Positions 46,259-63,624 of a DNA stretch of 64,000 nt are shown piece after piece. How positions within the stretch are numbered: position 1 is the stretch's first letter; every line of letters starts with the position of its first letter. Source of the DNA: Salegentibacter sediminis (GTDB lineage Bacteria; Bacteroidota; Bacteroidia; Flavobacteriales; Flavobacteriaceae); the NCBI RefSeq assembly GCF_002078605.1, contig NZ_MSJR01000004.1, positions 62,001-126,000 on the forward strand, given 5' to 3'. Made by a program: the position numbers and the translations under genes. Under the pieces are notes generated by a model. That model searched no databases and was not told the DNA's origin. It saw nothing but the letters and a program-made list of their open reading frames with translations.

Positions 46259-49200
46259 ATGCTGTCAAAAATTATCAGTTTCAGTATCAGGAATAAGCTC
46301 ATTATTCTTTTGTTCACCTCTTTTATAATTGGCTACGGACTTTATTCATTAAGCCAGTTATCTATTGGAGCGGTACCCGATATCACCAACAATCAGGTAC
46401 AGGTTATAACTACTTCCCAGAATCTTTCTACCCAGGATATGGAGCAATTCATCACCTATCCCGTGGAGCTGGAGATGGCCAATTTACCGGGTGTGGAAGA
46501 GATTCGTTCGGTCTCAAAATTCGGATTATCGGTGGTGACCATTGTTTTCGATGAAGATATGGGAACCTATTTGCCGAGGCAGCTTCTTGCTGAAAAGATC
46601 CAAACGGCTGCAGCCAATATTCCTGAAAGTTTTGGTAAACCAGAGATGGGCCCCATCACCACAGGACTCGGCGAGATCTACCAGTATATTCTGGATACCA
46701 AACCCGGTTATGAAGACCGGTATACAGCCATGGAGTTAAGAACGATCCAGGACTGGATAGTAAAGCGGCAATTATCGGGTATTCCCGGGGTAGTAGAAGT
46801 GAACAGCTGGGGAGGGAAGCTTAAACAATATGAAGTGGCCATAGATTCAGAAAAACTGATGGCGATGAATATCACCGCTTCTGAAGTCTATACGGCACTC
46901 GAAAAAAACAACAGCATAGCCGGGGGTGGTTATATAGAACGTCTCAATCAGGCATATTTTATTCGTGGAGAAGGCCTGATCCATTCCCTGGAAGATATTG
47001 AGAATATCGTGGTTAAAAATCCTGACGGCAACCCAATTTATATTCGGGATATTGCCGATGTTGGTTTTGGGAGTGCCACCCGGTTTGGCGCGATTACCGG
47101 AAATGGTGAAGGCGAAAAAGTACTCGGCCAGGTAATGATGATCAAGGATGGTAATTCCAAACAGGTTATTGAAGCGGTAAAAGACAGGGTAGAAGAGGTT
47201 TCAGAAAATTTGCCTGAAGGGGTTTATATCAATGCTTTTCTTGATAGAAGCGAACTTATAGCAAAAACAACCTGGACCATTACCGAAAACCTGATTTTCG
47301 GATTTCTAATCGTGATCTTTGTGGTGGTAGTTTTGCTGGGAAACCTGCGTTCAGGATTGGTAGTCGCCTCGGTGATTCCTCTGTCTTTACTTTTTGCATT
47401 CTCCCTGATGTACCTCTTTGGAGTAGACGCCAATTTAATGAGTCTGGGGGCGATCGACTTCGGAATAATTATCGATGGGGCCGTGATCATCGTTGAGTTT
47501 ATCGCTTACCAAATGACCTCGAAAGGATCTGAACTTAAAAATCTTTCAAGGTCTGAATTGAGTAAGGCTAAAGATAAGATCACCTTTACCGGCGCTTCAA
47601 AAATGATGAACTCGGCAGTTTTTGGTCAACTAATCATTTTAATAGTGTTTATTCCTATTCTCTCCCTTAGCGGAGTGGAGGGGAAAATGTTTCGGCCTAT
47701 GGCCTTAACTTTCAGTTTTGCCCTGGTGGGTGCGATGATTTTGTGTTTTACCTACGTCCCGGTAATATCTTCCATGGTTTTAAAACCCGATAAATTATCT
47801 GATAAGAATATTTCAGTACGCTTGATGCGTTTTATAACCAAACTCTATACTCCTACTATTACCTGGGCACTCAAGGCTAAAAAACTGGTGCTCGGCATCG
47901 CTGTATTTATTCTTGCCATAACTATCTATATTTTTACCACGATGGGGGGAGAGTTTGTACCTACCCTGGATGAAGGGGATTTTGTAATTCAGCCCATATT
48001 CAAAACAGGGACCTCCTTAAGTGAGACCATAGCACTCACCACTAAAATGGAGCAGATCCTGATGGAATTCCCCGAAGTAAAACAGGCGGTGTCCAGAATT
48101 GGTGCTGCTGAAGTTCCTACAGATCCCATGTCTATGGAAGAAAGCGATGTTATTATCACACTTGTCCCCAAAAAAGATTGGGTGACGGCCGATACTAAAG
48201 ATGGTCTTGCAGAAAAGTTCAAAGAGGCATTAATGATTATTCCCGGGATGGAAGTAGAATTCACCCAGCCTATCGAGATGCGTTTTAATGAACTCATCAC
48301 CGGGGTACGTGCCGATATTGCGATTAAGATCTTTGGGGAAGATTTAGATATTCTAAATCGCAAAGCCCACCAGATAGAAAGCCTAATAAGTGATGTGGAA
48401 GGCGCAGCAGATATAACAGTTGAAAAAATCGCCGGACTTCCCCAGATGAGCGTAAAATACGACCGGGCAAAAATAGCCCGTTATGGACTTAATATTTCAG
48501 ATATCAATGAGTTGGTGAGCGCTGGGTTTGCAGGGATGAAAATGGGAAGTGTTTTTGAAGGGGAGAAGCGTTTTGATCTCGTGGTAAGACTAAACGAAGA
48601 AAACAGAAAGGATATTTCCAACCTGGAAAATCTATATGTTGATACGCCTGCTGGAAACAAAATTCCACTGAATGAACTGGCAGAAATAAGTTATCAAAAA
48701 GGAGCCGCCAAGATTTCCAGAGATGAAACCCAGAGGAGGATTGTGGTTGGTATAAATGTTAGAAACCGTGATCTTCAATCGGTGGTAGATGATGTGGAAG
48801 CCCTGGTGAGTGCTAATATCGATTTGCCACCCGGGTATAATATTACCTACGGGGGGCAGTTTGAAAATTTGCAAAGCGCTAAAAACAGATTGAAAATCGC
48901 GGTACCGGTAGCCCTGGTACTTATTTTCTTCCTTTTATATTTCGCATTTGAATCGGTACGGGATGCTTTGATTATTTATTCTGCTATTCCATTATCTGCT
49001 GTTGGAGGCGTGTTTTTGCTATGGATAAGAGATATGCCGTTTAGTATTTCGGCGGGCGTTGGTTTTATCGCTCTTTTCGGGATTGCAGTGCTTAATGGGA
49101 TTGTTCTTATTGAACATTATAAAGAATTAAAAAAGGATGGCATGGAGCATACAGACCTATTAATGAAAAAAGGAGCTAAAGACCGCTTACGGGCGGTTTT

Positions 49201-50590
49201 GTTAACAGCTTCTGCAGCAGCCCTTGGTTTCCTTCCTATGGCAATTTCAACTGGCGCGGGAGCCGAAGTGCAACGACCTTTAGCCACTGTGGTAGTTGGG
49301 GGACTGGTAACCGCAACATTATTGACCCTGGTGGTATTACCCGTTTTATATTCCCTTTTTGGTGGAAGAAAAACTGCTAAGAAGAATGTTCATTTTAAAA
49401 AGAGTAAATACAAATTACCCGTCTTAATTCTATTGTTTTCCCTTCCGGGGTTTAGCCAGGAAAAGGAATTGAGTTTTGAAGAGGTTCGCCAATTAGCTAT
49501 TGAGAATAACGCAGGGTTACAGGTTTCCAATCTGAATATATCGGAAGCTGAAGCAATGGTGAATTCGGCATTTAGTTTCGATAAGACAGAAGTCTATTAT
49601 GGCTATAATCAATTGGACGAAGGCCCAACCGATGAGCCCTTCAGGGTGATGGGAATTCAGCAAAATTTTTCTTTTCCCACAGTATATTTTTCGGCTCAGA
49701 AATTTAATAAAGCAAATGTTAGCGTGCAGGAAGATGCTTATGGGCTTGTAAACCTCCGTTTGGAAAAGGAAGTAGCTTCAGCCTTTTATCAGCTTAAATA
49801 TGAACAGGAAAAGAGGGAGATCTATAAAGTTCTGGACAGTTTATACAGCCGTTTTGCTCAGGCAGCAACACGAAGGTTTGAACTTGGAGCAACCAATTAT
49901 CTGGAAAAAATAACGGCACAGGCAAGACAAAGAGAACTACAAACCCAATATCAACAAGCAGGAGAACAAGTTAAAGCGGCTTATGAGATGTTGTGGAGCA
50001 GGGTTCAGGCAGAAGAAGAATTCAGCATTGAGAAAGACAGTTTGGGCAAGCTGGAAATGACGCGTTTGGGCGTGGAAAATCACGAACTTCTGAATTTTTA
50101 TGATAGCCGTGAAAAATACTTTACAGCTCATAATAGGTTGATGAAGCAACAGCTCCTGCCCGATTTCAGTATAAATTATTTTGAAGCCACCACCCCTGAT
50201 ATTGATTACAGTTTGTATGGATACCAGGTAGGGATTAAAATTCCGCTACTATTTAGCGGACAGGCCTCAAAGATTAAGGCTTCAAAAATTGCTATGGAGA
50301 GAGCAGAGCAGGAGACCCGCAATAACAGGATCCTGCTTCAAACCAAATTTAACCAACTCCAGGCAGAACTTAGAAAATACCAGGAAGCTCTTAGTTATTA
50401 TGAAAATGAAGGCAAAGAGCTTTCCAGGGAAATCCTTAAAACCGCCAATGGCAGTTATGAGAATGGAGAAATAGACTTCTTTCAATATATCCAGAGTCTC
50501 GAAAATGCTTATGGTATCCAGTTATCTTACCTGGAAAGTCTCAATGCCTATAACCAAACCATCATTTCTTTAAATTATTTAAACCTGTAA
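46259..50590 (+). CDS. CzcA/CusA-type RND pump fused to a TolC-like outer-membrane channel
   Basis: 1443 residues. Residues 1 to about 1040 form a heavy-metal RND pump with 12 helices: SIGAVPDITNNQVQV at the start, the proton-relay motif DFGIIIDGAVIIVE in helix 4, and PTDPMSMEESDV in the periplasmic domain. At about residue 1050 a signal-peptide-like segment (KLPVLILLFSLPGFSQ) follows, then about 380 residues of outer-membrane-factor coiled coil (LSFEEVRQLAIENNAGLQVSN, FELGATNYLEKITAQA, NGEIDFFQYIQSLENAYGIQ). Pump and channel are normally separate proteins; here they share one frame. The ion could be Zn/Co/Ni or Cu/Ag. Confidence 0.92.
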   Translation: MLSKIISFSIRNKLIILLFTSFIIGYGLYSLSQLSIGAVPDITNNQVQVITTSQNLSTQDMEQFITYPVELEMANLPGVEEIRSVSKFGLSVVTIVFDEDMGTYLPRQLLAEKIQTAAANIPESFGKPEMGPITTGLGEIYQYILDTKPGYEDRYTAMELRTIQDWIVKRQLSGIPGVVEVNSWGGKLKQYEVAIDSEKLMAMNITASEVYTALEKNNSIAGGGYIERLNQAYFIRGEGLIHSLEDIENIVVKNPDGNPIYIRDIADVGFGSATRFGAITGNGEGEKVLGQVMMIKDGNSKQVIEAVKDRVEEVSENLPEGVYINAFLDRSELIAKTTWTITENLIFGFLIVIFVVVVLLGNLRSGLVVASVIPLSLLFAFSLMYLFGVDANLMSLGAIDFGIIIDGAVIIVEFIAYQMTSKGSELKNLSRSELSKAKDKITFTGASKMMNSAVFGQLIILIVFIPILSLSGVEGKMFRPMALTFSFALVGAMILCFTYVPVISSMVLKPDKLSDKNISVRLMRFITKLYTPTITWALKAKKLVLGIAVFILAITIYIFTTMGGEFVPTLDEGDFVIQPIFKTGTSLSETIALTTKMEQILMEFPEVKQAVSRIGAAEVPTDPMSMEESDVIITLVPKKDWVTADTKDGLAEKFKEALMIIPGMEVEFTQPIEMRFNELITGVRADIAIKIFGEDLDILNRKAHQIESLISDVEGAADITVEKIAGLPQMSVKYDRAKIARYGLNISDINELVSAGFAGMKMGSVFEGEKRFDLVVRLNEENRKDISNLENLYVDTPAGNKIPLNELAEISYQKGAAKISRDETQRRIVVGINVRNRDLQSVVDDVEALVSANIDLPPGYNITYGGQFENLQSAKNRLKIAVPVALVLIFFLLYFAFESVRDALIIYSAIPLSAVGGVFLLWIRDMPFSISAGVGFIALFGIAVLNGIVLIEHYKELKKDGMEHTDLLMKKGAKDRLRAVLLTASAAALGFLPMAISTGAGAEVQRPLATVVVGGLVTATLLTLVVLPVLYSLFGGRKTAKKNVHFKKSKYKLPVLILLFSLPGFSQEKELSFEEVRQLAIENNAGLQVSNLNISEAEAMVNSAFSFDKTEVYYGYNQLDEGPTDEPFRVMGIQQNFSFPTVYFSAQKFNKANVSVQEDAYGLVNLRLEKEVASAFYQLKYEQEKREIYKVLDSLYSRFAQAATRRFELGATNYLEKITAQARQRELQTQYQQAGEQVKAAYEMLWSRVQAEEEFSIEKDSLGKLEMTRLGVENHELLNFYDSREKYFTAHNRLMKQQLLPDFSINYFEATTPDIDYSLYGYQVGIKIPLLFSGQASKIKASKIAMERAEQETRNNRILLQTKFNQLQAELRKYQEALSYYENEGKELSREILKTANGSYENGEIDFFQYIQSLENAYGIQLSYLESLNAYNQTIISLNYLNL

Positions 50591-51760: not shown

Positions 51761-51806
51761 ACCTGATTCAAATCATATTAATCGTTTAGGGGGTACTTTA
51801 ACTTTG
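51761..51806 (+). promoter_or_regulatory. hemN promoter with FNR/CRP-type site
   Basis: TGAT-TCAA-ATCA at 51764-51775 (inside ACCTGATTCAAATCATATTA) is a perfect dyad of FNR type. Its centre is 36.5 bases upstream of the final G of the -7 box TAACTTTG (51799-51806), i.e. about -41.5 from the likely start of transcription. Confidence 0.75.
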
Positions 51807-51824
51807 TGGCCTAAACTAAACTAA

Positions 51825-53180
51825 ATGAGTTCTGATCTTATAAGAAAATACAATATTCCGGGTCCACGTTATACCAGTTATCCCACCGTTCCCTACTGGG
51901 AAGAGTCCGGATTTTCGGTTAAAGCCTGGAAGGATAGCTTGCTTAAACGCTTTAGCGAAAACCGGGAAATAAGTCTTTATCTACACCTGCCATTTTGTGA
52001 AAGTCTGTGCACTTTTTGTGGGTGTAACAAACGCATTACCAAACAACATGGGGTAGAGACGCCTTATATTGAAACCTTAATCCACGAGTGGGAACTCTAT
52101 TTGCAGGAGCTTCCATATAAACCGATTATAAAAGAAGTACACCTGGGGGGAGGCACTCCTACTTTTTTCTCTCCTGAGAATCTTGAATTTTTGCTAAAAA
52201 CCATCTTCCGAAAAGCAGAGCTTGGCGATGAGGTGGAGTTTAGTTTTGAAGGGCACCCAAATAATACCACCAAAGAACACCTTAAAAAACTTGCCGAATT
52301 AGGTTTTAGTAGGGTGAGTTATGGGGTTCAGGATTATAATATGAAAGTACAAATCGCTATTCATAGAATCCAGCCTTTTGAAAATGTAAAACGAGCTACC
52401 GAACAAGCCCGGGAAGCAGGCTATACTTCTATAGGTCATGATATAATTTTTGGCCTTCCTTTTCAAACAAAACAACATATTATTGAAACCATAGAGAAAA
52501 CCAAGTTGCTAATGCCAGATCGCATTGCTTTTTATAGCTATGCTCATGTGCCCTGGATAAAAGGTAGCGGTCAACGAGGTTTTAATGAAGATGATTTGCC
52601 CGATGGGGAGACTAAACGCGAAATGTATGAAACCGGAAAGCGAATGTTGGAAGAAGCCGGTTATGTAGAAATAGGGATGGACCATTTTGCCCTTAAATCT
52701 GATTCGCTTTATAAAGCGGTTGAGGAAAAAAACCTTCACCGGAATTTTATGGGCTATACCACCTCTAACACAGGCCTGATGATTGGGCTTGGAGTTTCAG
52801 CAATTAGTGATAGTTGGTATGGTTTCGCCCAGAATGAAAAAACCGTTGAGGCCTATCAGGAACGCGTTGAAAAAGGAGAGATTCCTGTCTTTAGAGGTCA
52901 TATCCTAAGTGAAGAAGATCTCAATATCAGAAAACATATCCTTAATCTTATGTGCCGACTGGAAACCAGTTGGGAAGCTCCAGAAGATTATTTTGAGGAA
53001 TTACCGCAGGTTCTGGTGAAACTTAGGGAAATGGAAAGTGATGGTTTAGTTGAATTCTCAGAAAAGGGATTGCGAATTCCGGAAAAAGGTAGGCCTTTTG
53101 TTCGAAATATTTGTATGGCCTTTGATCTAAGGTTACAAAGAAATGTTCCAGATACCAGATTGTTCTCTATGACCATGTAG
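51825..53180 (+). CDS. hemN: oxygen-independent coproporphyrinogen III oxidase
   Basis: 451 residues, radical SAM enzyme. The cluster-binding motif is FCESLCTFCGC (CxxxCxxC), with YLHLPF before it, EVHLGGGTPTFF, EFSFEGHPNN, SYGVQDYN and the C-terminal HemN domain. It decarboxylates coproporphyrinogen III to protoporphyrinogen IX without oxygen, supplying haem for the cbb3 oxidase. The N-terminal RYTSYPTVPYW identifies true HemN rather than HemW. The upstream FNR-like site agrees with use at low oxygen. Confidence 0.95.
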   Translation: MSSDLIRKYNIPGPRYTSYPTVPYWEESGFSVKAWKDSLLKRFSENREISLYLHLPFCESLCTFCGCNKRITKQHGVETPYIETLIHEWELYLQELPYKPIIKEVHLGGGTPTFFSPENLEFLLKTIFRKAELGDEVEFSFEGHPNNTTKEHLKKLAELGFSRVSYGVQDYNMKVQIAIHRIQPFENVKRATEQAREAGYTSIGHDIIFGLPFQTKQHIIETIEKTKLLMPDRIAFYSYAHVPWIKGSGQRGFNEDDLPDGETKREMYETGKRMLEEAGYVEIGMDHFALKSDSLYKAVEEKNLHRNFMGYTTSNTGLMIGLGVSAISDSWYGFAQNEKTVEAYQERVEKGEIPVFRGHILSEEDLNIRKHILNLMCRLETSWEAPEDYFEELPQVLVKLREMESDGLVEFSEKGLRIPEKGRPFVRNICMAFDLRLQRNVPDTRLFSMTM

Positions 53181-53206
53181 GCTTTCAGACTTAAAAAAAG
53201 AATAAT

Positions 53207-53232
53207 AAAAACCACGAATTTTCGTGGTTTTT
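53207..53232. terminator. bidirectional terminator after hemN and the cco operon
   Basis: AAAAACCACGAA (53207-53218), loop TT, TTCGTGGTTTTT (53221-53232). The A-run and T-run allow function on both strands between the convergent genes. Confidence 0.85.
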
Positions 53233-53254
53233 CTGTTTAAAAAAGTTTTGAGGA

Positions 53255-53389
53255 TTACTCTTTTTTACCTCCAAAGATCATTTTTAGGACTACAAAAATA
53301 AGGGCGACACATACCAGGGCAAAAAATCCAATAATATATGTTCCCATTTCCCAGTTTACCAGGGCAAGATTATTAGCTAGAGTCATCAT
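53255..53389 (-). CDS. 44-residue single-helix membrane protein at the end of the cco operon
   Basis: A short ORF missed by usual length limits. It starts ATGATG (53389 or 53386), encodes a short leader (TLANNLALVNWEMG), one membrane helix (TYIIGFFALVCVALIFVVLKM) and a basic tail (FGGKKE). It begins 8 bases after the TauE/SafE-like stop and is followed by a terminator, so it is very probably translated with the cco genes. No family recognised. Confidence 0.55.
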   Translation of the reverse strand: MMTLANNLALVNWEMGTYIIGFFALVCVALIFVVLKMIFGGKKE

Positions 53390-53397
53390 TTTTATAT

Positions 53398-54099
53398 TTA
53401 ATGGCAGGATTGAACTGCGGTTATTTTTGGAGTCATTTCAACGGGAGAGAGGTAGGGGATCCCTAATCCCATCCCGCGTATAATAAAAAGCAGGCCTATT
53501 ATTACTACAAATACGGGCACAGCTTTGGTTATCTTTTGCCTCACCCCGGTACCTATAATATTACCAAGGTAAACCGCGGCCGTCATCATCGGTACGGTAC
53601 CAAGCCCAAACAACATCATATAAAGACTGCCCTCAAGCGCATTGGCTGAGGCCACAGCCCCAAAAACAGCCATATATACCAGGCCACAGGGCAGGAACCC
53701 ATTAAGGAAGCCGGCGGTAAAAAAAGTGTCGGGAGTTTTTTTCTTAAGGCTTTGTCCCAGGCCTGATTTTACTTTAGAAATTATCCTGTAAACCGGGCCG
53801 GAGCCGTTAATTTTATTAAAAGTTTTATAGGGTAAAAAAATCACCAGGATCATTAAGATGCCAACGGCAATGGATAATTGCTGCTGAAGTCCAAACAAAC
53901 CAAAGCTTTTGCCTATAATTCCGAATAAGAGGCCAATAATAGCATAGGAGAAAATTCTCCCTATATGATAAAGGCTCACCTGCCCGACTTTGCGCAGGGA
54001 ATTTTCACGGTCTACCGGAAGCAAAAAAGCAATGGGACCACACATGCCGATGCAGTGAAAACTTCCTAAAAGGCCGAATATGAGTGCTGAAACTAGCAT
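53398..54099 (-). CDS. sulfite exporter TauE/SafE-like (DsbD-type) membrane protein
   Basis: 233 residues with six or so helices. GSFHCIGMCGP near the N-terminus (His-Cys-x3-Cys) and NGFLPCGLVYMA are the DsbD/CcdA-like or TauE-type motifs. Proteins of this sort are commonly encoded at the ends of cbb3 operons, where they are suspected of copper handling or thiol chemistry for oxidase maturation. It starts 3 bases after the ccoH stop. Confidence 0.8.
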   Translation of the reverse strand: MLVSALIFGLLGSFHCIGMCGPIAFLLPVDRENSLRKVGQVSLYHIGRIFSYAIIGLLFGIIGKSFGLFGLQQQLSIAVGILMILVIFLPYKTFNKINGSGPVYRIISKVKSGLGQSLKKKTPDTFFTAGFLNGFLPCGLVYMAVFGAVASANALEGSLYMMLFGLGTVPMMTAAVYLGNIIGTGVRQKITKAVPVFVVIIGLLFIIRGMGLGIPYLSPVEMTPKITAVQSCH

Positions 54100-54102
54100 G
54101 TT

Positions 54103-54549
54103 TTAGTAAACGATCTCATTTTTATACAGATAGGTTTCCCCCTGATATTCCCAGTGAATATAGATGTTCCATCTTCCGGGAATCAGATTTTTATCAGTGA
54201 TCTCGATACGGTTGGATTCCAGATTTAATGGAATATCAAAATCCAGTTTCGCGTTAGAAGGCCGGTAGAAGCTCAAACTCCCTGAAATTTCAGAAAGTTT
54301 AAGGTCTTCAGGAAACTCAATTAGCCACCCGTTCATGATCCTTCGATCGCTTATATTTTCAGCCAGGGCATTTCCCCGTGTTTCCGCATCGATTTCCTGC
54401 TGAAATAAAAGCTCCTTTTTGTAATATTCTTCAGTCACGAGATCGTGATCAAATTTTTCATCGGTGAGCATATTAAATACCAGGTAAAGTATAAAACTTA
54501 TAAAAAGCGTCATCCCTATCACTATGCCTGTTCCCCAGTTAATTTTCAT
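54103..54549 (-). CDS. ccoH: FixH/CcoH family protein
   Basis: 148 residues. One N-terminal membrane helix (GIVIGMTLFISFILYLVFNML) and a periplasmic domain (EYYKKELLFQQEIDAETRGNAL, then a beta-rich end with GRWNIYIHWEYQGETYLYK). CcoH helps assemble the cbb3 complex. It sits between ccoG and the TauE/SafE-like gene, the usual order in Bacteroidota. Confidence 0.87.
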   Translation of the reverse strand: MKINWGTGIVIGMTLFISFILYLVFNMLTDEKFDHDLVTEEYYKKELLFQQEIDAETRGNALAENISDRRIMNGWLIEFPEDLKLSEISGSLSFYRPSNAKLDFDIPLNLESNRIEITDKNLIPGRWNIYIHWEYQGETYLYKNEIVY

Positions 54550-54560
54550 AAGTAAAAATT

Positions 54561-55976
54561 TTAATTAAAACTTCGTGGTCCCATGAACATTGTCTTGGTG
54601 GTTTCAATGAGGCGGTCTCCACTATAAATGCCTATTTCCACTTTTTCTTTTTCATCTTCCAGGGCCGAGGCATTGATCTCAATAAACAAAGTTCCTTCAC
54701 TGAGTTCCTGTCCCGGCACCACGATCTCCTTATCCTGTACCGGTATTACCGTTCCCTGATGCGACATCAATTTAAATTCGATATCCCCAAAATCGGCGGT
54801 GGTCTTGTTTACCAATTTGTAGGTATAGACATTGCTGATCACGTTATTATCCTTGTGTTCATATAGCTGGCCGGGTAAACGTAAAATACGCGCTTCTACC
54901 TCGCTGCGCACAAACAGCATCCCGATGAGCACTGCGGTTAAAATCCCCAGCACTACGGTATAGCCTTTAAGCCTTGGGGTAAATCTGAATTTTGCCTTTT
55001 TCTCAATATTTTCTTCGCTGGCATAGCGAATAAGACCTTTGGGAAGATCTACGGCTTCCATCATAGAATCGCAGGCATCGATACAAGCCGTACAGTTAAT
55101 ACATTCCAACTGAGTCCCGTTTCGAATGTCTATACCCGTGGGGCAAACCTGCACACATTGAAAACAGTCTATGCAATCTCCTTTTCCGCTGGCTTCGCGG
55201 TCTTCGTTCTTTTTGAACTTTGCCCGACCTTTTTCTTTCTCCCCACGCTTATGATCATAAGCAACAACAATAGATTTATTATCCAGAAGTACGCCTTGCA
55301 ACCTTCCGTAGGGACAGGCAATAACACAAACCTGTTCCCTGAACCAGGCGAAGACAAAATAGAAAACCCCCGTGAAAATGAGCAACGAAAAGAAGGTGCT
55401 CAGGTGGTTCATCGGGCCATCGGTAACGTATTGTATCAAACGGTCGCTACCTATTAAATAGGCGAGGAAAACATTTGCTATAAGAAAGGAAATAATAGCA
55501 AACAAGAACCATTTTAAGCCTTTTTTCCTAATCTTTTCGGCATTCCATTCCTGTTTATTGAGACGCATCTGCTTCCCACGGTCACCTTCTATCCAGTATT
55601 CAATTCTTCGGAAGACCATTTCCATAAATATGGTTTGTGGGCAAAGCCATCCGCAAAAGATCCTTCCGAAGGCTACCGTAAAAAGAATAATGAACACCAC
55701 CCCAATCACCATCATGATCACAAAAATGTGAAAATCCTGGGGCCAGAAGGGAAATCCGAAGATATTGAAACGTCGTTCCAGGATGTTGAACATCAGGAAC
55801 TGGTTACCGTTTATTTTCACAAAAGGAGCGGCAAAAAGAAAGATGAGAAGCACATAGCTAACGTATTTACGATAGTCATAAAACCTACCTTCGGGTTTCT
55901 TGGGATAGATCCATTTTCTCTCTCCTTTTTCGCCCGCGGTGGCTATAGTATCTCTAAAGCTTTCGTTGTTTTCCAA
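54561..55976 (-). CDS. ccoG: cbb3 oxidase accessory protein CcoG (FixG/RdxA)
   Basis: 471 residues with a TTG start: an in-frame stop lies five codons upstream and no ATG lies between. It has several membrane helices, GWLCPQTIFME in the N-terminal half, and two cysteine clusters for [4Fe-4S] centres (CIDCFQCVQVCPTGIDIRNG and LECINCTACIDACDSM). A periplasmic Ig-like domain ends it. CcoG is thought to reduce copper for cbb3 maturation. Confidence 0.94.
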   Translation of the reverse strand: MENNESFRDTIATAGEKGERKWIYPKKPEGRFYDYRKYVSYVLLIFLFAAPFVKINGNQFLMFNILERRFNIFGFPFWPQDFHIFVIMMVIGVVFIILFTVAFGRIFCGWLCPQTIFMEMVFRRIEYWIEGDRGKQMRLNKQEWNAEKIRKKGLKWFLFAIISFLIANVFLAYLIGSDRLIQYVTDGPMNHLSTFFSLLIFTGVFYFVFAWFREQVCVIACPYGRLQGVLLDNKSIVVAYDHKRGEKEKGRAKFKKNEDREASGKGDCIDCFQCVQVCPTGIDIRNGTQLECINCTACIDACDSMMEAVDLPKGLIRYASEENIEKKAKFRFTPRLKGYTVVLGILTAVLIGMLFVRSEVEARILRLPGQLYEHKDNNVISNVYTYKLVNKTTADFGDIEFKLMSHQGTVIPVQDKEIVVPGQELSEGTLFIEINASALEDEKEKVEIGIYSGDRLIETTKTMFMGPRSFN

Positions 55977-56006
55977 CTTCTTATTCTCTTAAATTAAATC
56001 TACCAG

Positions 56007-56891
56007 TTATTCTGCATCTCCTGTCCAGACATCTCCTTCCGGTGCTTTGGCATCGGGAGGGTTGGTGCCTTCCAGGCTTACCACGTAGCTTGCAACCTGA
56101 GCAATCTCTTCGGCACTAAGGGAAGATTTCCAGGCGACCATTCCTTTTCCGTCACGGCCCCCTTCAGAAACAGTATGGAAAATATTGCTTATTCCTCCTC
56201 CCAGGATCCAGTGTTCATCGGTTAAATTTGGGCCAATAGCGCCACCACCATCGGCACGGTGACAGGCTATACAGTTTGCCATGTAAATTGTTTCCCCGGC
56301 CTCAAGATCGGCAGCATCGGTAAGTAACTCAACATTGGAGGCATCCAGTAAATCCGGATTCTCTTTTTTATAAGCTTCTACCTGTTCTTTGGCCTTTGCA
56401 ACTTCAGCAAGATATTCTTCTGTTTGATCTGCTCCGTCAAACACGTGATAGCGTACCATATAGATAACCGCAAAGATGATACTGATGTAAAATCCATACA
56501 ACCACCAGGCCGGAAGATCGTTATCCAATTCACGTATTCCATCGTAATTGTGATCTAAGATAATCTCATCTTCTTTTTCCAGAGGCTTTTTGGTGACCAT
56601 CTTTTCATAGAGGCGTCTAAACCAGGCGGTACGTTTTTGGTGTTGGGCCTTTTCAATCTGAAAAAGCTTATCACGGCCTTGCTCATCAAGGCTTTTACGC
56701 ACCATATTCTTAAGGGCCGCCAGAGAGGCTTCAATAGCGATGGCAATGATAAGGATCAAGCCTAAAACAACCCAAACAAATGGGTATTGTTGAAATACCC
56801 AGGTGGTTTCAGCATCTATGCTTATTTCTATTAAGAGGAATGCCAGGATTATAAACCCTGCAATTCTTAAATATGACGAAGTAGATCTCAT
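56007..56891 (-). CDS. ccoP: cbb3 oxidase cytochrome c subunit CcoP
   Basis: 294 residues. Two or three membrane helices (FIILAFLLIEISI, FVWVVLGLILIIAIAIEASLA, WWLYGFYISIIFAVIYMV) and the acidic LDHNYDGIRELDNDLPAWW characteristic of CcoP lead to a cytochrome c domain with one CxxCH (NCIACHRADGGG) and a distal MVAWKSSLSAEEIAQVASYV. Textbook CcoP has two haems; only one site is seen, which I believe is usual in Flavobacteria. It overlaps ccoQ by 4 bases. Confidence 0.93.
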   Translation of the reverse strand: MRSTSSYLRIAGFIILAFLLIEISIDAETTWVFQQYPFVWVVLGLILIIAIAIEASLAALKNMVRKSLDEQGRDKLFQIEKAQHQKRTAWFRRLYEKMVTKKPLEKEDEIILDHNYDGIRELDNDLPAWWLYGFYISIIFAVIYMVRYHVFDGADQTEEYLAEVAKAKEQVEAYKKENPDLLDASNVELLTDAADLEAGETIYMANCIACHRADGGGAIGPNLTDEHWILGGGISNIFHTVSEGGRDGKGMVAWKSSLSAEEIAQVASYVVSLEGTNPPDAKAPEGDVWTGDAE

Positions 56892-57076
56892 AATTGGTTA
56901 TTTTCTTGGTTTTGGTCTAAGGGTAGCTGGCTTACTTCATTAATGTGTTCTTTTTTCGTAGTGAAAACCCACCAGAAAAGGGCAACAAAAAAGATGAAGA
57001 AAATAAGCAGCGAGATGATGGGGTAGATCGTTACCCCATCTATAGCTTCAAGATTTCCTTTTATAAATTTTAACAT
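56888..57076 (-). CDS. ccoQ: CcoQ-like cbb3 oxidase subunit
   Basis: 62 residues, a single membrane helix (IYPIISLLIFFIFFVALFWWVF) followed by a charged cytoplasmic tail (TTKKEHINEVSQLPLD), as in CcoQ. It overlaps ccoP (ATGA) and starts 2 bases after the ccoNO stop. CcoQ stabilises the complex. Confidence 0.82.
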   Translation of the reverse strand: MLKFIKGNLEAIDGVTIYPIISLLIFFIFFVALFWWVFTTKKEHINEVSQLPLDQNQENNQL

Positions 57077-57078
57077 AA

Positions 57079-59280
57079 TTACTCGTTTTTAGCTGAAACT
57101 TCCTGGGCGTCTATTACCTTGATATCGGTTCCTAAGCGTTGCAGGTAGGCAATAAGAGCTACAATTTCCCGGTTACGCATCTCTACGAATTCGGTGTTAT
57201 TCTCCTCGGCATATTCCTTATCGGCCTGGTAGGTACGTGCAAAGTCAGGATCGGAGTGCAGGTTTTCCTCGATTTCAGTTCCCTGTTCCAACATCCACTC
57301 TTGTGCATTGGCGATCTCTTCTTCGGTATATGGTACCCCAAGGGTGTTAAGTGCCCGCATTTTATTTTCGGTATCGCTCTTATCCAACTCATCGGTGATC
57401 AGCCATTTGTAGGCCGGCATAATTGAGCCCGAAGAGGTACTCTGGGGATCGTACATATGGTTTAGGTGCCAGTTATCGGAATATTTACCTCCTACCCGCA
57501 GTAAATCGGGGCCGGTACGTTTACTACCCCATAAGAACGGATAATCGTAAACATATTCGCCCGATTTGGAGTATTCTCCATAGCGTTCCACTTCACTTCT
57601 AAAAGGCCTGATCATCTGGGAGTGACATCCCACACAACCTTCCCTGATGTAGATATCGCGGCCTTCAAGCTCCAGCGGAGTATATGGTTTTACACTGGAA
57701 ATAACAGGAACATATTCGTCTACCATCAGCGATGGTATTATCTGTACTATTCCACCAATAAGAATTGCGATGGTGGCATACAGAGTTAGTTTTACAGGTC
57801 TTCTTTCCAGCCAGGTGTGGTAACCTTCTCCGGTAACACGTTTTCTGGTAACTTTTTGTAGCGGTGCAGCTTCAGCAAGTTCATCTTCTACCGCGCTTCC
57901 CTGTCTAACGGTTTTTACGATATTATAGAGTAAGATAAAAGCACCAACGATATATAAACTTCCTCCAATGGCACGCATCCAGTACATCGGAATAATCGAA
58001 GTTACCGTTTCCAGGAAGTTTCCGTAGGTAAGGGTTCCATCGGGATTAAATTGTTTCCACATAGAAGCCTGTACGAATCCGGCAACATACATAGGGAGGG
58101 TATAGATAATAATACCAAGAGTACCTATCCAGAAATGTGCATTGGCAAGTTTAACCGAGTAAAGCTTTGTTTTGAACAATCGTGGCACCATCCAATAGAC
58201 CATCCCAAAGGTTAGGAAACCGTTCCAGGCTAAAGCCCCAACGTGCACGTGCGCAATAATCCAGTCACTGAAGTGGGCTATGGCATTAACGTTTTTAAGT
58301 GAAAGCATAGGGCCTTCAAAAGTTGCCATCCCGTATCCGGTAATCGCCACTACGAAGAATTTAAGAACAGGATCTGTTCTTACCTTGTCCCAGGCTCCAC
58401 GCAGGGTCAATAAGCCGTTGATCATTCCACCCCAGGAGGGGAACAATAGCATTACTGAAAATGCAACCCCAAGGTTCTGAGCCCAATCTGGCAATGCAGA
58501 ATAGAGCAGGTGGTGGGGCCCGGCCCAGATATAAATAAATATCAATGACCAGAAGTGAATAATCGAGAGTCGGTAGGAGTAAACAGGCCTATTAGCTGCT
58601 TTGGGTACAAAATAGTACATAAGCCCAAGGAAAGGAGTGGTAAGGAAAAATGCCACCGCATTATGCCCGTACCACCATTGTACCAGGGCATCCTGAACTC
58701 CTGAGAAAATAGAATAACTTTTAAATGCAGAAACAGGTATTTCAAGATTGTTTACGATATGCAACACCGCAACGGTCACGAAAGTTGCCAGGTAAAACCA
58801 AATGGCTACATATAAATGGCGCTGCCGGCGTTTTATCATTGTCATAATAAGGTTAACTCCAAATGCTACCCAAACTATGGCTATTGCGATATCAATAGGC
58901 CATTCCAGTTCGGCGTATTCCTTTGAGCTTGTAAAACCCATTGGTAGGGTAATCGCCGCGGCAACAATAATAGTCTGCCAACCCCAGAAGTTTATGTTAC
59001 TAAGTGCATCACTCCACATTCTGGCTTTTAACAGCCGTTGGGTAGAGTAATATACTCCGGCAAAAATGGCGTTCCCAACAAAGGCAAAGATCACCGCATT
59101 AGTGTGCAGTGGTCGTAACCGGCCAAAACTAAGCCAGGAAATGCCATCGGTAAGGTTAGGGAATAAAAACATAAAGGCCAGAAGCAGGCCAACACTCATT
59201 CCCACAATACCCCATACGAGGGTGGCAATGGTAAACATCTTTACGATCTTATTATCGTAATAAAACTGTTCTGTTTGCAT
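57079..59280 (-). CDS. ccoN: cbb3-type cytochrome c oxidase fused subunits I and II (CcoNO)
   Basis: 733 residues. Residues 1 to about 480 are CcoN with 12 helices and haem/copper His ligands (GRLRPLHTNAVIFAF, WWYGHNAVAFFLTTPFLG, GPHHLLYSALPDW, IIAHVHVGALAWNGF). From about 530 the CcoO cytochrome c domain follows after one more helix: IREGCVGCHSQMIRPF with CxxCH, then GGKYSDNWHLNHMYDPQSTSSGS. The fusion is a known Bacteroidota arrangement. It is the terminal oxidase for low oxygen. Confidence 0.96.
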   Translation of the reverse strand: MQTEQFYYDNKIVKMFTIATLVWGIVGMSVGLLLAFMFLFPNLTDGISWLSFGRLRPLHTNAVIFAFVGNAIFAGVYYSTQRLLKARMWSDALSNINFWGWQTIIVAAAITLPMGFTSSKEYAELEWPIDIAIAIVWVAFGVNLIMTMIKRRQRHLYVAIWFYLATFVTVAVLHIVNNLEIPVSAFKSYSIFSGVQDALVQWWYGHNAVAFFLTTPFLGLMYYFVPKAANRPVYSYRLSIIHFWSLIFIYIWAGPHHLLYSALPDWAQNLGVAFSVMLLFPSWGGMINGLLTLRGAWDKVRTDPVLKFFVVAITGYGMATFEGPMLSLKNVNAIAHFSDWIIAHVHVGALAWNGFLTFGMVYWMVPRLFKTKLYSVKLANAHFWIGTLGIIIYTLPMYVAGFVQASMWKQFNPDGTLTYGNFLETVTSIIPMYWMRAIGGSLYIVGAFILLYNIVKTVRQGSAVEDELAEAAPLQKVTRKRVTGEGYHTWLERRPVKLTLYATIAILIGGIVQIIPSLMVDEYVPVISSVKPYTPLELEGRDIYIREGCVGCHSQMIRPFRSEVERYGEYSKSGEYVYDYPFLWGSKRTGPDLLRVGGKYSDNWHLNHMYDPQSTSSGSIMPAYKWLITDELDKSDTENKMRALNTLGVPYTEEEIANAQEWMLEQGTEIEENLHSDPDFARTYQADKEYAEENNTEFVEMRNREIVALIAYLQRLGTDIKVIDAQEVSAKNE

Positions 59281-59282
59281 AG

Positions 59283-59474
59283 TTATTCAGTTTTCTCTTG
59301 TTTGGTGGTTTTATTTTTGGATTTTGAGTTTACTAATTCGTCTTCAAACAGCATACGGACCGAAGGAGTATACATATCGTCATACTGGCCCTTTTTTACC
59401 GAGAGGATAAAAGCTATAAAGAAAATTATGGCTACCAGAACGCTGAGTGCCAGTAGCAGGTAGATAATATTCAT
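59283..59474 (-). CDS. ccoS: cbb3 oxidase assembly protein CcoS
   Basis: 63 residues: one membrane helix (IIYLLLALSVLVAIIFFIAFIL), the conserved SVKKGQYDDMYTPSVRMLFEDE and a Lys/Thr-rich tail. CcoS is needed for insertion of cofactors into the oxidase. It is the first gene after the FNR-type promoter and is 2 bases from ccoNO. Confidence 0.9.
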   Translation of the reverse strand: MNIIYLLLALSVLVAIIFFIAFILSVKKGQYDDMYTPSVRMLFEDELVNSKSKNKTTKQEKTE

Positions 59475-59493
59475 TGTTTAGTTAATTGCGCCA

Positions 59494-59540
59494 CAAAAAT
59501 AATGGCTAATTAAATTTTAAAATATGACCTCAATCAGGTT
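59494..59540 (-). promoter_or_regulatory. cco operon promoter with FNR/CRP-type site
   Basis: On the plus strand the site reads TGAC-CTCA-ATCA (59525-59536) within AATATGACCTCAATCAGGTT; on the minus strand ACCTGATT...TCATATT, as at hemN. The -7 box TATTTTTG (59501-59494, minus) is exact and its last G is 36.5 bases from the dyad centre. Confidence 0.7.
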
Positions 59541-59548
59541 TCATGTGT

Positions 59549-61930
59549 TTAAAATTGCCTAAGCCCTTTCCCGGCAAGCTTAGTTGCCAGGCTGGTAAAA
59601 GCTACTATACTAATGGAACTCAGGGGCATAAGGATTGCAGCGATTACCGGCATTAAATTCCCGGTGACTGCAAATGCCAGCCCCACCAGGTTATAGCACA
59701 GGCTCAGCACAAAACTCCATTTAATGATCTTCATTCCCTTTTCTGAAATTTCAAAAAAGCTGTGCAGGTCTTTTAACCTGGAAGCATCCAGGATCCCGTC
59801 ACAGGCAGGGGAAAAAACATTTATATTTTCTGAAACCGATATTCCAACATCACTTTGGGCCAAAGCCCCGGCATCATTAAGGCCGTCTCCAACCATCATC
59901 ACCCTGTTGCCTTGCTGCTGAAGCCTTTTTATAAAAACCAGTTTATCTTCGGGTTTCTGGTTAAAATAATATTTCGTTTGCAGCGGAAGCATTTTTTCAA
60001 GACGTTCTTTCTCACCATCATTATCTCCCGAGAGGATAAAGATTTGTCTTCCTTTCCCGAGTTTTTCCAGGAGTTCTTCCAGGCCTTCCCGATAGGAATT
60101 CCTGAAAATAAAACGCCCCTTGTATTCCCGGTTACTGCTAATATGTACTGCCGTTTTATTAGCTTGTGCGGTCTCGCTTAAAGGTTGCTGCACAAAGTCT
60201 GCAGAACCTATCTTTAAATTGCTTTGTTTATGCCTGGCCTCAATACCTTTTCCGGTATGTTCGGTAAACTCCTCTGGGGTGAGGATCTCATTTTTATTGA
60301 GAATATCGTATAACTGCCGGCTAAGGGGGTGCCCCGAGGCCCGCAGACTTCCGCTAAGGAGTTTTTCCTCTTCTGTGGTGAGCTTAAGGCCTTCGTAGTA
60401 AATCTCGGCTTTTTTATTGGTGGTGATCGTTCCGGTTTTATCAAATACCAGACAATCGATTTGGGCGATTTGTTCTATAATTCCTGCTTCTTTTAAGTAG
60501 AATTTATTCCTTCCGAAGATACGAAGCAAATTACCCAGCGTAAAAGGCGTAGATAAGGCTATAGCACAGGGGCAGGCTATAATAAGCACCGCGGTGAACA
60601 CATTTAAGACTTTAGTAGGATCGTAAATAATCCAAAACAAGCTGGCCAGAAATGCAATACTTAGCACGGCGGCTGTAAATCGCTTGCTGATCTGGTTGAT
60701 AAGGCTTTGGAAAGCCGAATTCTTATTCTTTTTAAAAACCTCATTGCTCCATAGTTTTGTTAGATAACTTTGGTTTATGGCTTTTATCGCTTCAATTTCG
60801 ATCAATCCTCCTTGCTGGCGTCCTCCGGCGAACAGGGTTTCTCCCTGTAATTTCTCCACGGCATTGGCTTCTCCGGTTACAAAACTGTAATCGATTAAGG
60901 CATCCCCCGTCATCAGGACAGCATCTATCGGAATTAACTCCCCGTTTCTTATCAGGATACGATCTCCGGGTTCTATATCGTATACCTGCACCTGTTCTTC
61001 AACATTTTCTGAAGTGAGTCGCGTAACCCCTATGGGGAAATACGATTTATAATCCCGTTCAAAAGAAAGGTAAGAGTATGTTTTTTGCTGAAAAAATCTT
61101 CCTAAAAGCAGGAAGAAGACCAGGCCGGTGAGGCTATCAAAAAAGCCTGTTCCCAGGTCCAGGACAATCTCTGCGGTGCTACGTAGAAATAATACCGCAA
61201 TGCCCAGAGCTATAGGAACATCGATATTTAGCATATTAGCCCGAAGCCCTTTATAGGCCGAAATGAAATAACCCGAGCCCGCGTAAAAAACCACGGGAAG
61301 GGAAAAGGCAAACATCATCCAGCGGAATAGGTTTTTGAAACGCTCCAACCAGAATTCATTCACTTCAAAATACTCGGGAAAAGAAAGGAACATCACATTC
61401 CCAAAGGCAAAGCCCGCGACTCCTAATTTATAGATAAGGCTTCGGTTTATATCTGGTTTCTTTTCATCAAAATCTTTGAGGGAAATGTAGGGTTCATAAC
61501 CAATTCTACTTAACAGATATGCAAGGTCTTTTAGGGAGACCTCTTCAGGATTATAGGTGATTCGAACTGTTTTACCCGGAAAATCAACCTGAGAGGTTTT
61601 TACTCCCGGATTAAGTTTATTGAGGTTTTCCAGTACCCAGATACAGGAACTGCAATGCATAGACGGAATGAGCAGGTTAACCACCTGGGTATTGTTCTCG
61701 TTGAATTCCAGCAACTTTGCAAGGATTTCCTTATTATCGAGGAAATCGAATTTTCGCTCTGAAGAAGCCGGAGAGATCCCCGGGTTACTATCCAGGTCGT
61801 AATAATAGGAAAGGTCACTTTCATTCAGGATCTCATAGACGGTTTTGCAGCCCGTACAACAGAAATCCTTTTCCTGATAACGTAGATGCTCTTCTTTACA
61901 TTCTTCACCGCAGTGAAAACAACTGGTCAT
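59549..61930 (-). CDS. ccoI: copper-transporting P-type ATPase of the cbb3 locus (CcoI/FixI)
   Basis: 793 residues from the ATG at 61930; the TTG two codons upstream is less likely. An N-terminal Cys-rich region (SCFHCGEEC, CCTGCKTVYEIL), an HMA domain with SMHCSSCIWVLE, eight helices with the ion-binding ACPCAIALSTP, the phosphorylation site FDKTGTIT and VGDGLNDAGAL make a P1B ATPase. The ATPase supplies copper to the oxidase. It is transcribed separately upstream of ccoS, with its own FNR-type promoter. Confidence 0.95.
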   Translation of the reverse strand: MTSCFHCGEECKEEHLRYQEKDFCCTGCKTVYEILNESDLSYYYDLDSNPGISPASSERKFDFLDNKEILAKLLEFNENNTQVVNLLIPSMHCSSCIWVLENLNKLNPGVKTSQVDFPGKTVRITYNPEEVSLKDLAYLLSRIGYEPYISLKDFDEKKPDINRSLIYKLGVAGFAFGNVMFLSFPEYFEVNEFWLERFKNLFRWMMFAFSLPVVFYAGSGYFISAYKGLRANMLNIDVPIALGIAVLFLRSTAEIVLDLGTGFFDSLTGLVFFLLLGRFFQQKTYSYLSFERDYKSYFPIGVTRLTSENVEEQVQVYDIEPGDRILIRNGELIPIDAVLMTGDALIDYSFVTGEANAVEKLQGETLFAGGRQQGGLIEIEAIKAINQSYLTKLWSNEVFKKNKNSAFQSLINQISKRFTAAVLSIAFLASLFWIIYDPTKVLNVFTAVLIIACPCAIALSTPFTLGNLLRIFGRNKFYLKEAGIIEQIAQIDCLVFDKTGTITTNKKAEIYYEGLKLTTEEEKLLSGSLRASGHPLSRQLYDILNKNEILTPEEFTEHTGKGIEARHKQSNLKIGSADFVQQPLSETAQANKTAVHISSNREYKGRFIFRNSYREGLEELLEKLGKGRQIFILSGDNDGEKERLEKMLPLQTKYYFNQKPEDKLVFIKRLQQQGNRVMMVGDGLNDAGALAQSDVGISVSENINVFSPACDGILDASRLKDLHSFFEISEKGMKIIKWSFVLSLCYNLVGLAFAVTGNLMPVIAAILMPLSSISIVAFTSLATKLAGKGLRQF

Positions 61931-61950
61931 ATGCAAGCTAGATTTTCCGG

Positions 61951-61996
61951 CAAATTTTGAGCAATTGTGCCAGGTGTAATATGATTAGAATCAGGT
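61951..61996 (-). promoter_or_regulatory. ccoI promoter with FNR/CRP-type site
   Basis: TGAT-TAGA-ATCA (61982-61993, plus) sits in TAATATGATTAGAATCAGGT (61977-61996), the reverse complement of the hemN site with one change in 20 bases. The -7 box is AAAATTTG (61958-61951, minus; first base off consensus) and its G is 36.5 bases from the dyad centre. Confidence 0.68.
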
Positions 61997-62075: not shown

Positions 62076-63419
62076 TTAAAGTTTCTTCTTTCGTTTTCTG
62101 GTCCTGGAGATGATGTTCAGGTAGAAATATCCTATTATTCCTGCGAGCATGGATGCGATTAGAATTCCGATTTTTGCCTGGGCTTGCAGGGCTTCATCTA
62201 CAAATGCAAGGTCGGTGATGAATAAGGACATAGTAAATCCAATCGCTCCCAGAAATCCCAGTCCGTAAATATGTTTCCATTTCACATTTCTTGGTAGTGC
62301 CGAAATTTTTAAGAAGACCATAAGCCTGGTGAAAATGACAATTCCGAAGATTTTTCCGATAATAAGTCCGAAGATAACGCCCAGGGTAACCGGGCTATGG
62401 AAAAGGTCAAAAGAAGTGGTGTTTATGGTAACTCCTGCATTGGCAAAAGCGAAAATTGGCAGTACCACAAAACTCACAAAGGGATAAAGGGCGTGTTCCA
62501 AACGTTGGAGAGGCGGGGTGGCATCTTCGGTTAGCGAAGCGAACTTTTCTATGGTATGGGTGATCTTTTCTTCGGTCTCTATGGGATTTCTTTCTCTGTC
62601 GCGGTAATGCTGTTTTATTTCAAAAGAAAGCATTTTTGCCTTCCGAAGAAAAAGTGGAGTATTGATACGTTTAGAAGTAGGCACAGCAAAGGCAGCCAGC
62701 ACCGCGGCTATGGTGGCATGAACCCCTGAGAGTAAAATTGCCAGCCATAAACCGCCAATTCCCATAATCGCATAGAACAGGGTATTTCTTATTCCAATAA
62801 TATTGGCAGTTATCAGAATTAAAAGAAAGAAGGCCCCTACTGCCAGGCTTTCCATAGAAATTTCGGAAGTATAGAAGAATGCAATCACCAGGACGGCACC
62901 CAGATCATCAACAATCGCAATGGCCGTTAGGAGAATTTTTAAGGTGAAGGGAACCCTGTCGCCCAGTAGAAAAAGAATTCCTAAAGCGAAAGCTATATCG
63001 GTAGCCATCGGAATTCCCCAACCGGAGGCTCCAGGTTCGCCGGCATTTAAGTAATAGTATATTATAGCCGGAACAAGCATACCTCCAATCGCTGCAGCCA
63101 CGGGTAAGATAGATTTACCTAAGCTGGACAATTCCCCCTGCAGGATTTCTCTTTTTAGTTCCAGCCCAACCATAAAAAAGAAAATAGACATTAAGCCGTC
63201 ATTTATCCAATGCAAGAGGTTTTTTCGTAAAACAAAATCGTTTATGCCCAGGTGTATATATTGTTTCCAAAGGCCGTGATAAGCTTCTGCTAGAGGGGAG
63301 TTAGCCACGATCATTGCCAGAATTGCCGAAAAGATCAACACCAGGCCCACCGAGGTTTGTTTCTCGATAAAATTCTTTATGGGTAGTAAAAAATAAAGAT
63401 CAAGGCCCGACTTTTTCAT
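62076..63419 (-). CDS. nhaA: Na+/H+ antiporter NhaA
   Basis: 447 residues with about twelve helices. The characteristic FFFMVGLELKREILQGELSS, PMATDIAFALGILFLLGDRVP and AIAIVDDLGAVLVIAFFY contain the essential Asp residues (one in ATD and the VDD pair). The loop with RDRERNPIETEEKITHTIEK is longer than in E. coli NhaA. It exchanges sodium for protons at alkaline or saline conditions, consistent with a marine organism. It appears monocistronic. Confidence 0.95.
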   Translation of the reverse strand: MKKSGLDLYFLLPIKNFIEKQTSVGLVLIFSAILAMIVANSPLAEAYHGLWKQYIHLGINDFVLRKNLLHWINDGLMSIFFFMVGLELKREILQGELSSLGKSILPVAAAIGGMLVPAIIYYYLNAGEPGASGWGIPMATDIAFALGILFLLGDRVPFTLKILLTAIAIVDDLGAVLVIAFFYTSEISMESLAVGAFFLLILITANIIGIRNTLFYAIMGIGGLWLAILLSGVHATIAAVLAAFAVPTSKRINTPLFLRKAKMLSFEIKQHYRDRERNPIETEEKITHTIEKFASLTEDATPPLQRLEHALYPFVSFVVLPIFAFANAGVTINTTSFDLFHSPVTLGVIFGLIIGKIFGIVIFTRLMVFLKISALPRNVKWKHIYGLGFLGAIGFTMSLFITDLAFVDEALQAQAKIGILIASMLAGIIGYFYLNIISRTRKRKKKL

Positions 63420-63624
63420 AATTCAGCTACTGATTTGATTTTAAAGTTACAATCTCCTAAAAACAGGCAAAATGATAAGGCTCAGGTTTTAACCTAATAA
63501 AGCTTCCTTTTCCGGGAACCTGTGATTTAAAATGGGGAAATGATAAACACCTGAATTGCACATTCTTTGAAAAGTTTAACTTTTAAGCAAGCTTTTCTGC
63601 GTTAAATTTACCCCCGGTACAGGC

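Follow-up and report, generated by a model that had tools for sequence, protein, structure and literature searches.

Three operator-like dyads lie upstream of hemN, ccoS and ccoI in the 64,000-nucleotide stretch of Salegentibacter sediminis DNA analysed here (contig NZ_MSJR01000004.1, positions 62,001 to 126,000; 'the window'). Our data suggest, with a probability of roughly 0.6, that the dyads serve a low-oxygen regulon as activator sites in the class II position (-41.5), and that they would be read not by FNR but by a fusion of a receiver domain to a CRP-type output (REC-CRP) acting under a FixL-type kinase. Such a FixL to REC-CRP switch would probably serve promoters that formerly belonged to FNR. 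All of the evidence is computational.

The first-pass annotation had put the distance from each dyad centre to the last G of a TAnnTTTG-like box downstream at exactly 36.5 bases, and re-measurement gave the same coordinates (table 1) and exactly this distance at hemN, ccoS and ccoI. The letters ACCTGATT...TCATATT are indeed common to all three dyads, and the statement that the hemN and ccoI sites differ at only 1 of 20 bases holds in the register ACCTGATT..TATTA, becoming 2 of 20 when the register is moved one base to the left. In the ccoS dyad the right half reads GTCA, which makes this dyad imperfect, and the ccoI box deviates from TAnnTTTG at one of six positions. When both strands of the window were scanned with relaxed thresholds (core at least 7/8, box at least 5/6, sum at least 13/14, gap 22-24), these three sites and no others were returned; a fourth and weaker site upstream of nhaA, which emerged with the genome-wide pattern described below, falls under this threshold. 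Bacteroidota promoters differ from those of Escherichia coli, and the class II position of FNR and CRP is about -41.5. In Flavobacterium psychrophilum, mapped transcription starts place a -7 box TAnnTTTG at -12 to -5, according to the available text of PMC9723704, and a dyad centre 36.5 bases before the final G of such a box would therefore be located at about -41.5, as had been proposed; for S. sediminis, this is a predicted position.

Both sites and geometry are conserved at the orthologous promoters of relatives. We compared 15 genomes of the genus (one of them only 61% complete), which represent one clade, i.e. genome counts are not independent events. The offset of 36.5 was found at hemN in all 14 genus genomes examined, as well as in Salinimicrobium, at ccoS in all 14 genus genomes with ccoN, and at ccoI in 12 of 14, with 35.5 in the other two (G004 and G011). 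At nhaA it was found in 12 of the 12 genus genomes where the site was readable, which excludes G004; a search for nhaA found none in G005, G015 and Salinimicrobium, and there was no hemN in the G015 stretches taken. Across 14 genus genomes, half-sites and boxes have a mean pairwise identity of 0.85-1.00 (0.89-1.00 for the TGAT/ATCA halves), compared with 0.33-0.55 for spacer and upstream DNA, except for the ccoS gap with 0.80. Among 30 ccoN loci, 29 were read (G028 was left out), and seven of these have no best site at 36.5 (G017, G025, G026, G030, G036, G037 and G039).

The same arrangement recurs throughout the S. sediminis genome (3.26 Mb, in an assembly of 22 contigs). With up to three mismatches, the pattern ACCTGATN5TCATATT-N19-TANNTTTG has 18 matches versus a single one for the reversed pattern used as a control, and 17 of the 18 are followed by the start of a same-strand open reading frame 15-99 nucleotides 3' of the box, the remaining one being intragenic. 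At up to two mismatches, 25 of 40 relatives have matches to the pattern and none has a match to its reverse, with 3-12 matches per genome in all 15 genus genomes. The first-pass annotation had named the absence of a spacing preference as an outcome that would speak against it; the distribution of gaps peaks at 36.5. In six genus genomes, TGAYN5TCA followed by TANNTTTG at gaps of 9-38 gave 151 matches in total (81 for the reversed control of this looser pattern), and among the 150 matches listed, 52 fall on the single gap equivalent to 36.5 and 11 on the next, while the other gaps average about 3.4 matches each, the 11 being included in this average. Chance as the origin of the three sites was rejected on the basis of the window scan, the reversed-pattern control and this spacing peak.

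Beyond hemN, ccoS and ccoI, sites of the same geometry in the S. sediminis genome lie 5' of genes for three universal stress proteins (usp genes), an S30AE ribosome-hibernation-type protein, complex I subunit A, a 2-oxoacid:acceptor oxidoreductase alpha subunit, NhaA, an MFS transporter, a fasciclin-domain protein, two outer-membrane proteins, a GH97-like protein (a label given to the sequence by eye) and two products without a Pfam match. Some of the 18 sites, at three mismatches, may be chance matches. Taken together, the common motif, the class II geometry and the conservation of the orthologous promoters support the shared low-oxygen regulon that the first-pass annotation had predicted, as far as sequence can suggest it. 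On contig C17, a gap-24 site 5' of a deoC-like aldolase gene has a gap-23 site nearby (146823-146866 and 147309-147351).

It had also been predicted that these promoters are controlled by an FNR-like regulator, i.e. an Fe-S FNR, which we now regard as very improbable. FNR-bearing relatives do use the same promoters, with unchanged geometry and a closely similar dyad, and the dyad core TGATnnnnATCA also occurs in the FNR consensus. All eight cNMP-domain proteins found in the S. sediminis genome were listed, however, and none of them is at ortholog level with the FNR of relatives. The best match to the FNR of relatives (35% identity) covers query residues 34-224; as it begins only at residue 34 of FNR, it does not include the N-terminal cysteines. 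Across the 15 genus genomes such matches never exceed 35% and never cover these cysteines, and FNR at ortholog level was not found in Salinimicrobium; with no match of this level in the genus, Fe-S FNR was rejected as the regulator here. Cysteines are also absent from the output part of REC-CRP (from residue 126 on) and from L006, a second candidate, while L001, another CRP-family protein of the genome, has two, neither of them in an N-terminal CxxC.

In the relatives, FNR is tied to the cco genes. Of the 40 genomes, 14 have a full-length FNR match (39-100%), and each of these 14 carries ccoN; beyond the genus and Salinimicrobium the ccoN-bearing genome without FNR is G039 (0.3 Mb). This FNR-like protein has C4, C7, C53 and C106 in 11 of 13 cases, and a comparison of its profile with solved structures gave FNR at 1e-34 to 1e-35, the top match being the uncharacterised Crp/Fnr protein 2gau. 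At 22 of 24 FNR loci of relatives (the survey omitted L189 of G025) the FNR gene is divergent from ccoI, a slot that in the window is filled by nhaA. The cco sites of FNR-bearing relatives occupy the same place with the same geometry, but their sequence is not the same: an A stands at dyad base 5 in 24 of 27 FNR-served cco sites versus 0 of 45 sites in the genus and Salinimicrobium (Fisher p about 4e-16, which is not a true probability because the genomes are related). In the FNR set, 3 of 20 ccoI sites have a gap of 22 or 24 instead of 23, and a ccoI site of this kind is missing from 4 of the 24 FNR loci. The -1 flank, judged by eye, also seems to differ between genus and FNR-type sites (C versus A).

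The candidate that we favour, REC-CRP, belongs to the six of the eight cNMP-domain proteins that have a recognised CRP helix-turn-helix (HTH), two of which are receiver-CRP fusions. It consists of a receiver, a cNMP-binding domain and HTH_Crp_2, i.e. it is not of the FixJ type, having no LuxR/GerE HTH as its output, nor of the FixK type, being fused to a receiver and reaching 70 bits with the NCBIfam FixK model (cut-off 300). The kinase encoded next to it has the heme-type PAS, HisKA and HATPase domains by which a FixL is recognised, and is predicted to bind heme and O2. When its residues 1-160 were compared with a set of PDB structures, FixL came first (1d06, 3.4e-18) and the top seven rows were all FixL, with both the proximal His and the distal Arg matched in the alignment. 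The curated FixL model NF041777 gave 114 bits in two stretches (the best at residues 10-142) against a cut-off of 850, and we therefore call the kinase FixL-like rather than filing it as a rhizobial FixL. H68 and H196 of the kinase are invariant in 15 of 15 sequences and R88 in 14 of 15, as is Asp52 of REC-CRP in 17 of 17.

Full-length kinase and REC-CRP genes are paired in 14 of the 15 genus genomes and in Salinimicrobium, the missing case being the 61% complete genome. A usp gene 3' of REC-CRP carries the site in S. sediminis, in most genus genomes and in Salinimicrobium, where the pair is located about 13 kb from ccoN in a region with usp, ccoI, ccoS and hemN sites. The S. sediminis REC-CRP gene also precedes a truncated-hemoglobin-like gene, named by eye and without a Pfam or NCBIfam match. 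G010, which has neither a ccoN match nor L006, retains ACCTGATTCCCATCATATT 3' of REC-CRP; in this genome kinase and REC-CRP were each matched twice, at distant places on one contig. For a survey of other Bacteroidota, we took the best 80 REC-CRP loci of a longer list and omitted four with a receiver-only match. In the resulting 76 loci, a kinase matching the PAS profile lies directly upstream in 66, with the heme histidine in 63, and a site lies no more than 260 bp 3' of REC-CRP in 35, 33 of these at the exact gap, whereas ten other gaps used as controls gave 0-3. Among the motif-box pairs in these loci, 49 of 69 are at gap 23.

Several observations weigh against REC-CRP as the reader of the cco and hemN sites. 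Base 5 of the dyad is mixed in REC-CRP-adjacent sites (A in 11 of 35), and across the phylum these sites belong to usp or other genes and not to cco. Genomes with both FNR and REC-CRP have FNR-type ccoI sites in 11 of 11 cases. G015, which combines FNR with a REC-CRP and a kinase of non-heme type, uses ACC-flanked cco sites. The S. sediminis REC-CRP has a paralog, L004 (48%), which might share its sites, and the phyletic pattern of L006 is as good as that of REC-CRP itself. With respect to FNR, 25 named fusion-bearing genomes comprise 11 with FNR at 57% or more, two with FNR at 38-42% and 12, including S. catena and S. nanhaiense, in which no FNR reaches that level. The kinase/REC-CRP pair is thus not a general substitute for FNR, since 11 fusion-bearing genomes keep both FNR and FNR-type ccoI sites. 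The G015 fusion (L180:64-3580) is 43% identical and follows a PAS-PAS-GAF kinase that matched the FixL-type query in its kinase part only; its second PAS contains NCRFLQ, a signature of LOV (blue-light) domains, and in G015 this type of regulator may be wired to light rather than oxygen.

The stand-alone CRP protein L006 could be the direct, FixK-like activator, either alone or at the end of a cascade from FixL via REC-CRP to L006, which we consider unlikely, though it is the main rival reading. L006 is present with at least 67% identity in all 13 of the genus genomes that combine ccoN with the FixL pair, as well as in Salinimicrobium, and absent from the cco-less G010 and from the FNR-bearing family members G015, G016, G017, G019, G020, G022 and G023. 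In Salinimicrobium, it is found about 3 kb from the hemN site and adjoins a truncated-hemoglobin-like gene. FNR, REC-CRP and L006 form three separate groups in the phylogeny, with L006 as sister to REC-CRP (84/88). A TGACC..CTCA dyad at gap 23, as a cascade requires, lies 5' of L006 in 5 of 14 loci (genus and Salinimicrobium), but no boxed site was seen 5' of L006 in the other nine, including that of S. sediminis. Relatives of L006 co-occur with FNR in G026, G027 and G028; moreover, the sites are linked to REC-CRP genes across the phylum in the loci surveyed, and the site in G010 has persisted without L006. In their phyletic pattern, REC-CRP and L006 are separated in G010 only. A gene for a membrane protein with the His-rich HSHVALLGW (L317:2620-3819 on contig C20), without a Pfam or NCBIfam match, adjoins L006, and a related gene is found near L006 in most genus genomes.

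That yet another CRP-family protein is the regulator appears improbable. L001, L003, L004, L005 and two cNMP proteins without a recognised HTH are all encoded in the S. sediminis genome, and L004 is surrounded by seven more TGAY..TCA sites near Hsp20 and usp genes. Within the genus, however, L001-like matches at the level searched are limited to G000 and G001, which is why L001 was rejected, and full-length L004-like matches (46-49%) occur only in G000, G001 and Salinimicrobium, the second fusion of the other genus genomes being more distant from L004 (33-36%). This tracing in relatives covered L001, L004 and L006. The L004 locus (L043, contig C12:378000-396000) comprises Hsp20, several usp genes and eight TGAY..TCA sites at gap 23, with several boxes ending in TTAG or TTTA.

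For REC-CRP as the regulator, the sites with their geometry and conservation, the gene neighbourhood, the phyletic pattern and the ligand and phospho-acceptor residues can be read from the sequences directly, and from these we infer heme and O2 binding, phosphotransfer, DNA binding and the direction of regulation. On release of O2 from the PAS heme, the kinase would become active and a phosphoryl group would be transferred from the HisKA histidine H196 to the receiver Asp52 of REC-CRP, whose dimer would bind ACCTGAT-n4-ATCATATT. From -41.5, it would contact RNA polymerase at TAnnTTTG promoters, so that hemN, ccoS-NOQPGH, ccoI, nhaA, universal stress protein genes and others would be switched on. 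A single polypeptide would thus combine the roles of rhizobial FixJ and FixK, at promoters for which related flavobacteria use FNR.

This putative circuit resembles the FixL-FixJ-FixK system of rhizobia and Caulobacter in its FixL-type heme-PAS kinase, its cco/fix operon and hemN targets and its CRP-family activator without Fe-S. It differs in its host phylum, the Bacteroidota, in its promoter type TAnnTTTG and in its receiver being fused to the CRP output, with no separate FixJ (receiver plus LuxR-type HTH) seen; because of this fusion, the cascade would be one step shorter. With the regulons of the Fe-S proteins FNR, FnrN and FnrL it shares the class II position at -41.5, a TGATnnnnATCA-like core and the hemN and cco targets, but no ortholog-level FNR was found in the genus, and flank and inner base of the dyad differ; in flavobacterial relatives, an FNR-like protein with conserved cysteines fills the FNR role, as judged by its position. 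According to the available text of the respective papers, a close parallel exists in Caulobacterales, where FnrN was lost and Fnr sites were taken over by FixLJ-FixK (PMC4999443), and in the hFixL-FxkR-FixKf system of Rhizobium a FixL-type sensor likewise replaces FixLJ above a CRP-family activator, whereas FxkR and FixKf are separate proteins (PMC4999443, PMC7888657). F. psychrophilum induces cbb3 oxidase and heme synthesis genes at low O2, as the available text of PMC9723704 reports; the terms Fnr and Crp are absent from its main text. CRP/FNR regulons of wastewater Bacteroidota have been treated with E. coli FNR and CRP and Bacteroides MalR motifs, and in the available text of that study no description of the present motif was found (PMC8510549), nor was any Bacteroidota pairing of a FixL-type kinase and a receiver-CRP fusion found described in the accessible portions of the open-licence PMC papers that our searches returned.

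The features concerned are compiled in table 1; ccoI adjoins the ccoS-NO end of the cco operon. Elsewhere in the window (46259-50590, plus strand), one frame of 1443 aa combines an RND efflux pump (ACR_tran) with an OEP outer membrane efflux domain.

Table 1. Operator sites, boxes and genes, in window positions unless a contig is given.
Feature	Position	Strand	Remarks
hemN operator dyad TGATTCAAATCA	51764-51775	+	extended form ACCTGATTCAAATCATATT at 51761-51779
hemN -7 box TAACTTTG	51799-51806	+	
ccoS operator dyad TGATTGAGGTCA (gene orientation)	59525-59536	-	
ccoS -7 box TATTTTTG	59494-59501	-	
ccoI operator dyad TGATTCTAATCA (gene orientation)	61982-61993	-	
ccoI -7 box AAAATTTG	61951-61958	-	5/6 match
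nhaA upstream site, dyad TGAGCCTTATCA	63473-63484	-	fourth and weaker site, from genome-wide pattern
nhaA upstream site, box TAACTTTA	63442-63449	-	as above
hemN, oxygen-independent coproporphyrinogen III oxidase	51825-53180	+	TIGR00538, 434 bits (cut-off 325)
cco operon	53398-59474	-	order ccoS-ccoNO-ccoQ-like-ccoP-ccoG-ccoH-like-membrane protein
ccoS	59283-59474	-	named from position and sequence only
ccoNO, fused	57079-59280	-	NF011053 above cut-off
ccoQ-like stretch, between ccoNO and ccoP		-	named from position and sequence only
ccoP	56007-56891	-	TIGR00782 match, below cut-off
ccoG	54561-55976	-	TIGR02745 above cut-off
ccoH-like	54103-54549	-	named from position and sequence only
Sulfite exporter/ccoH2-like membrane protein	53398-54099	-	no NCBIfam match
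ccoI (fixI), P-type copper ATPase	59549-61930	-	best NCBIfam TIGR01525, 337 bits, slightly under cut-off 346
nhaA, Na+/H+ antiporter	62076-63419	-	PF06965
REC-CRP gene	contig C16, 248595-249641		directly 3' of FixL-type heme-PAS kinase gene
L006, stand-alone CRP protein, 198 residues	contig C20, 185026-185619		

Overall, the FixL-type kinase and REC-CRP offer a testable low-oxygen circuit for Bacteroidota, with an operator, a promoter geometry, a target list, a sensor and a candidate regulator. A more far-reaching and more tentative view, which we place slightly short of even odds, is that a compact FixL-FixJ/K oxygen circuit, made up of a heme-PAS kinase and a receiver-CRP fusion and read out at -41.5 of TAnnTTTG promoters, exists throughout the Bacteroidota and that, in the genus and Salinimicrobium, it has outright replaced FNR at the cbb3 and hemN promoters, convergently with the Caulobacterales. 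FNR would then have been lost from its place beside ccoI, and the operator would have drifted from TGACAnnTATCA to CCTGATYnnnATCA without any change in geometry. This swap, which is proposed for the genus and Salinimicrobium only, would probably have been a single event. If this is true, the chemistry of oxygen sensing would have been exchanged, from Fe-S to heme, at conserved promoters.

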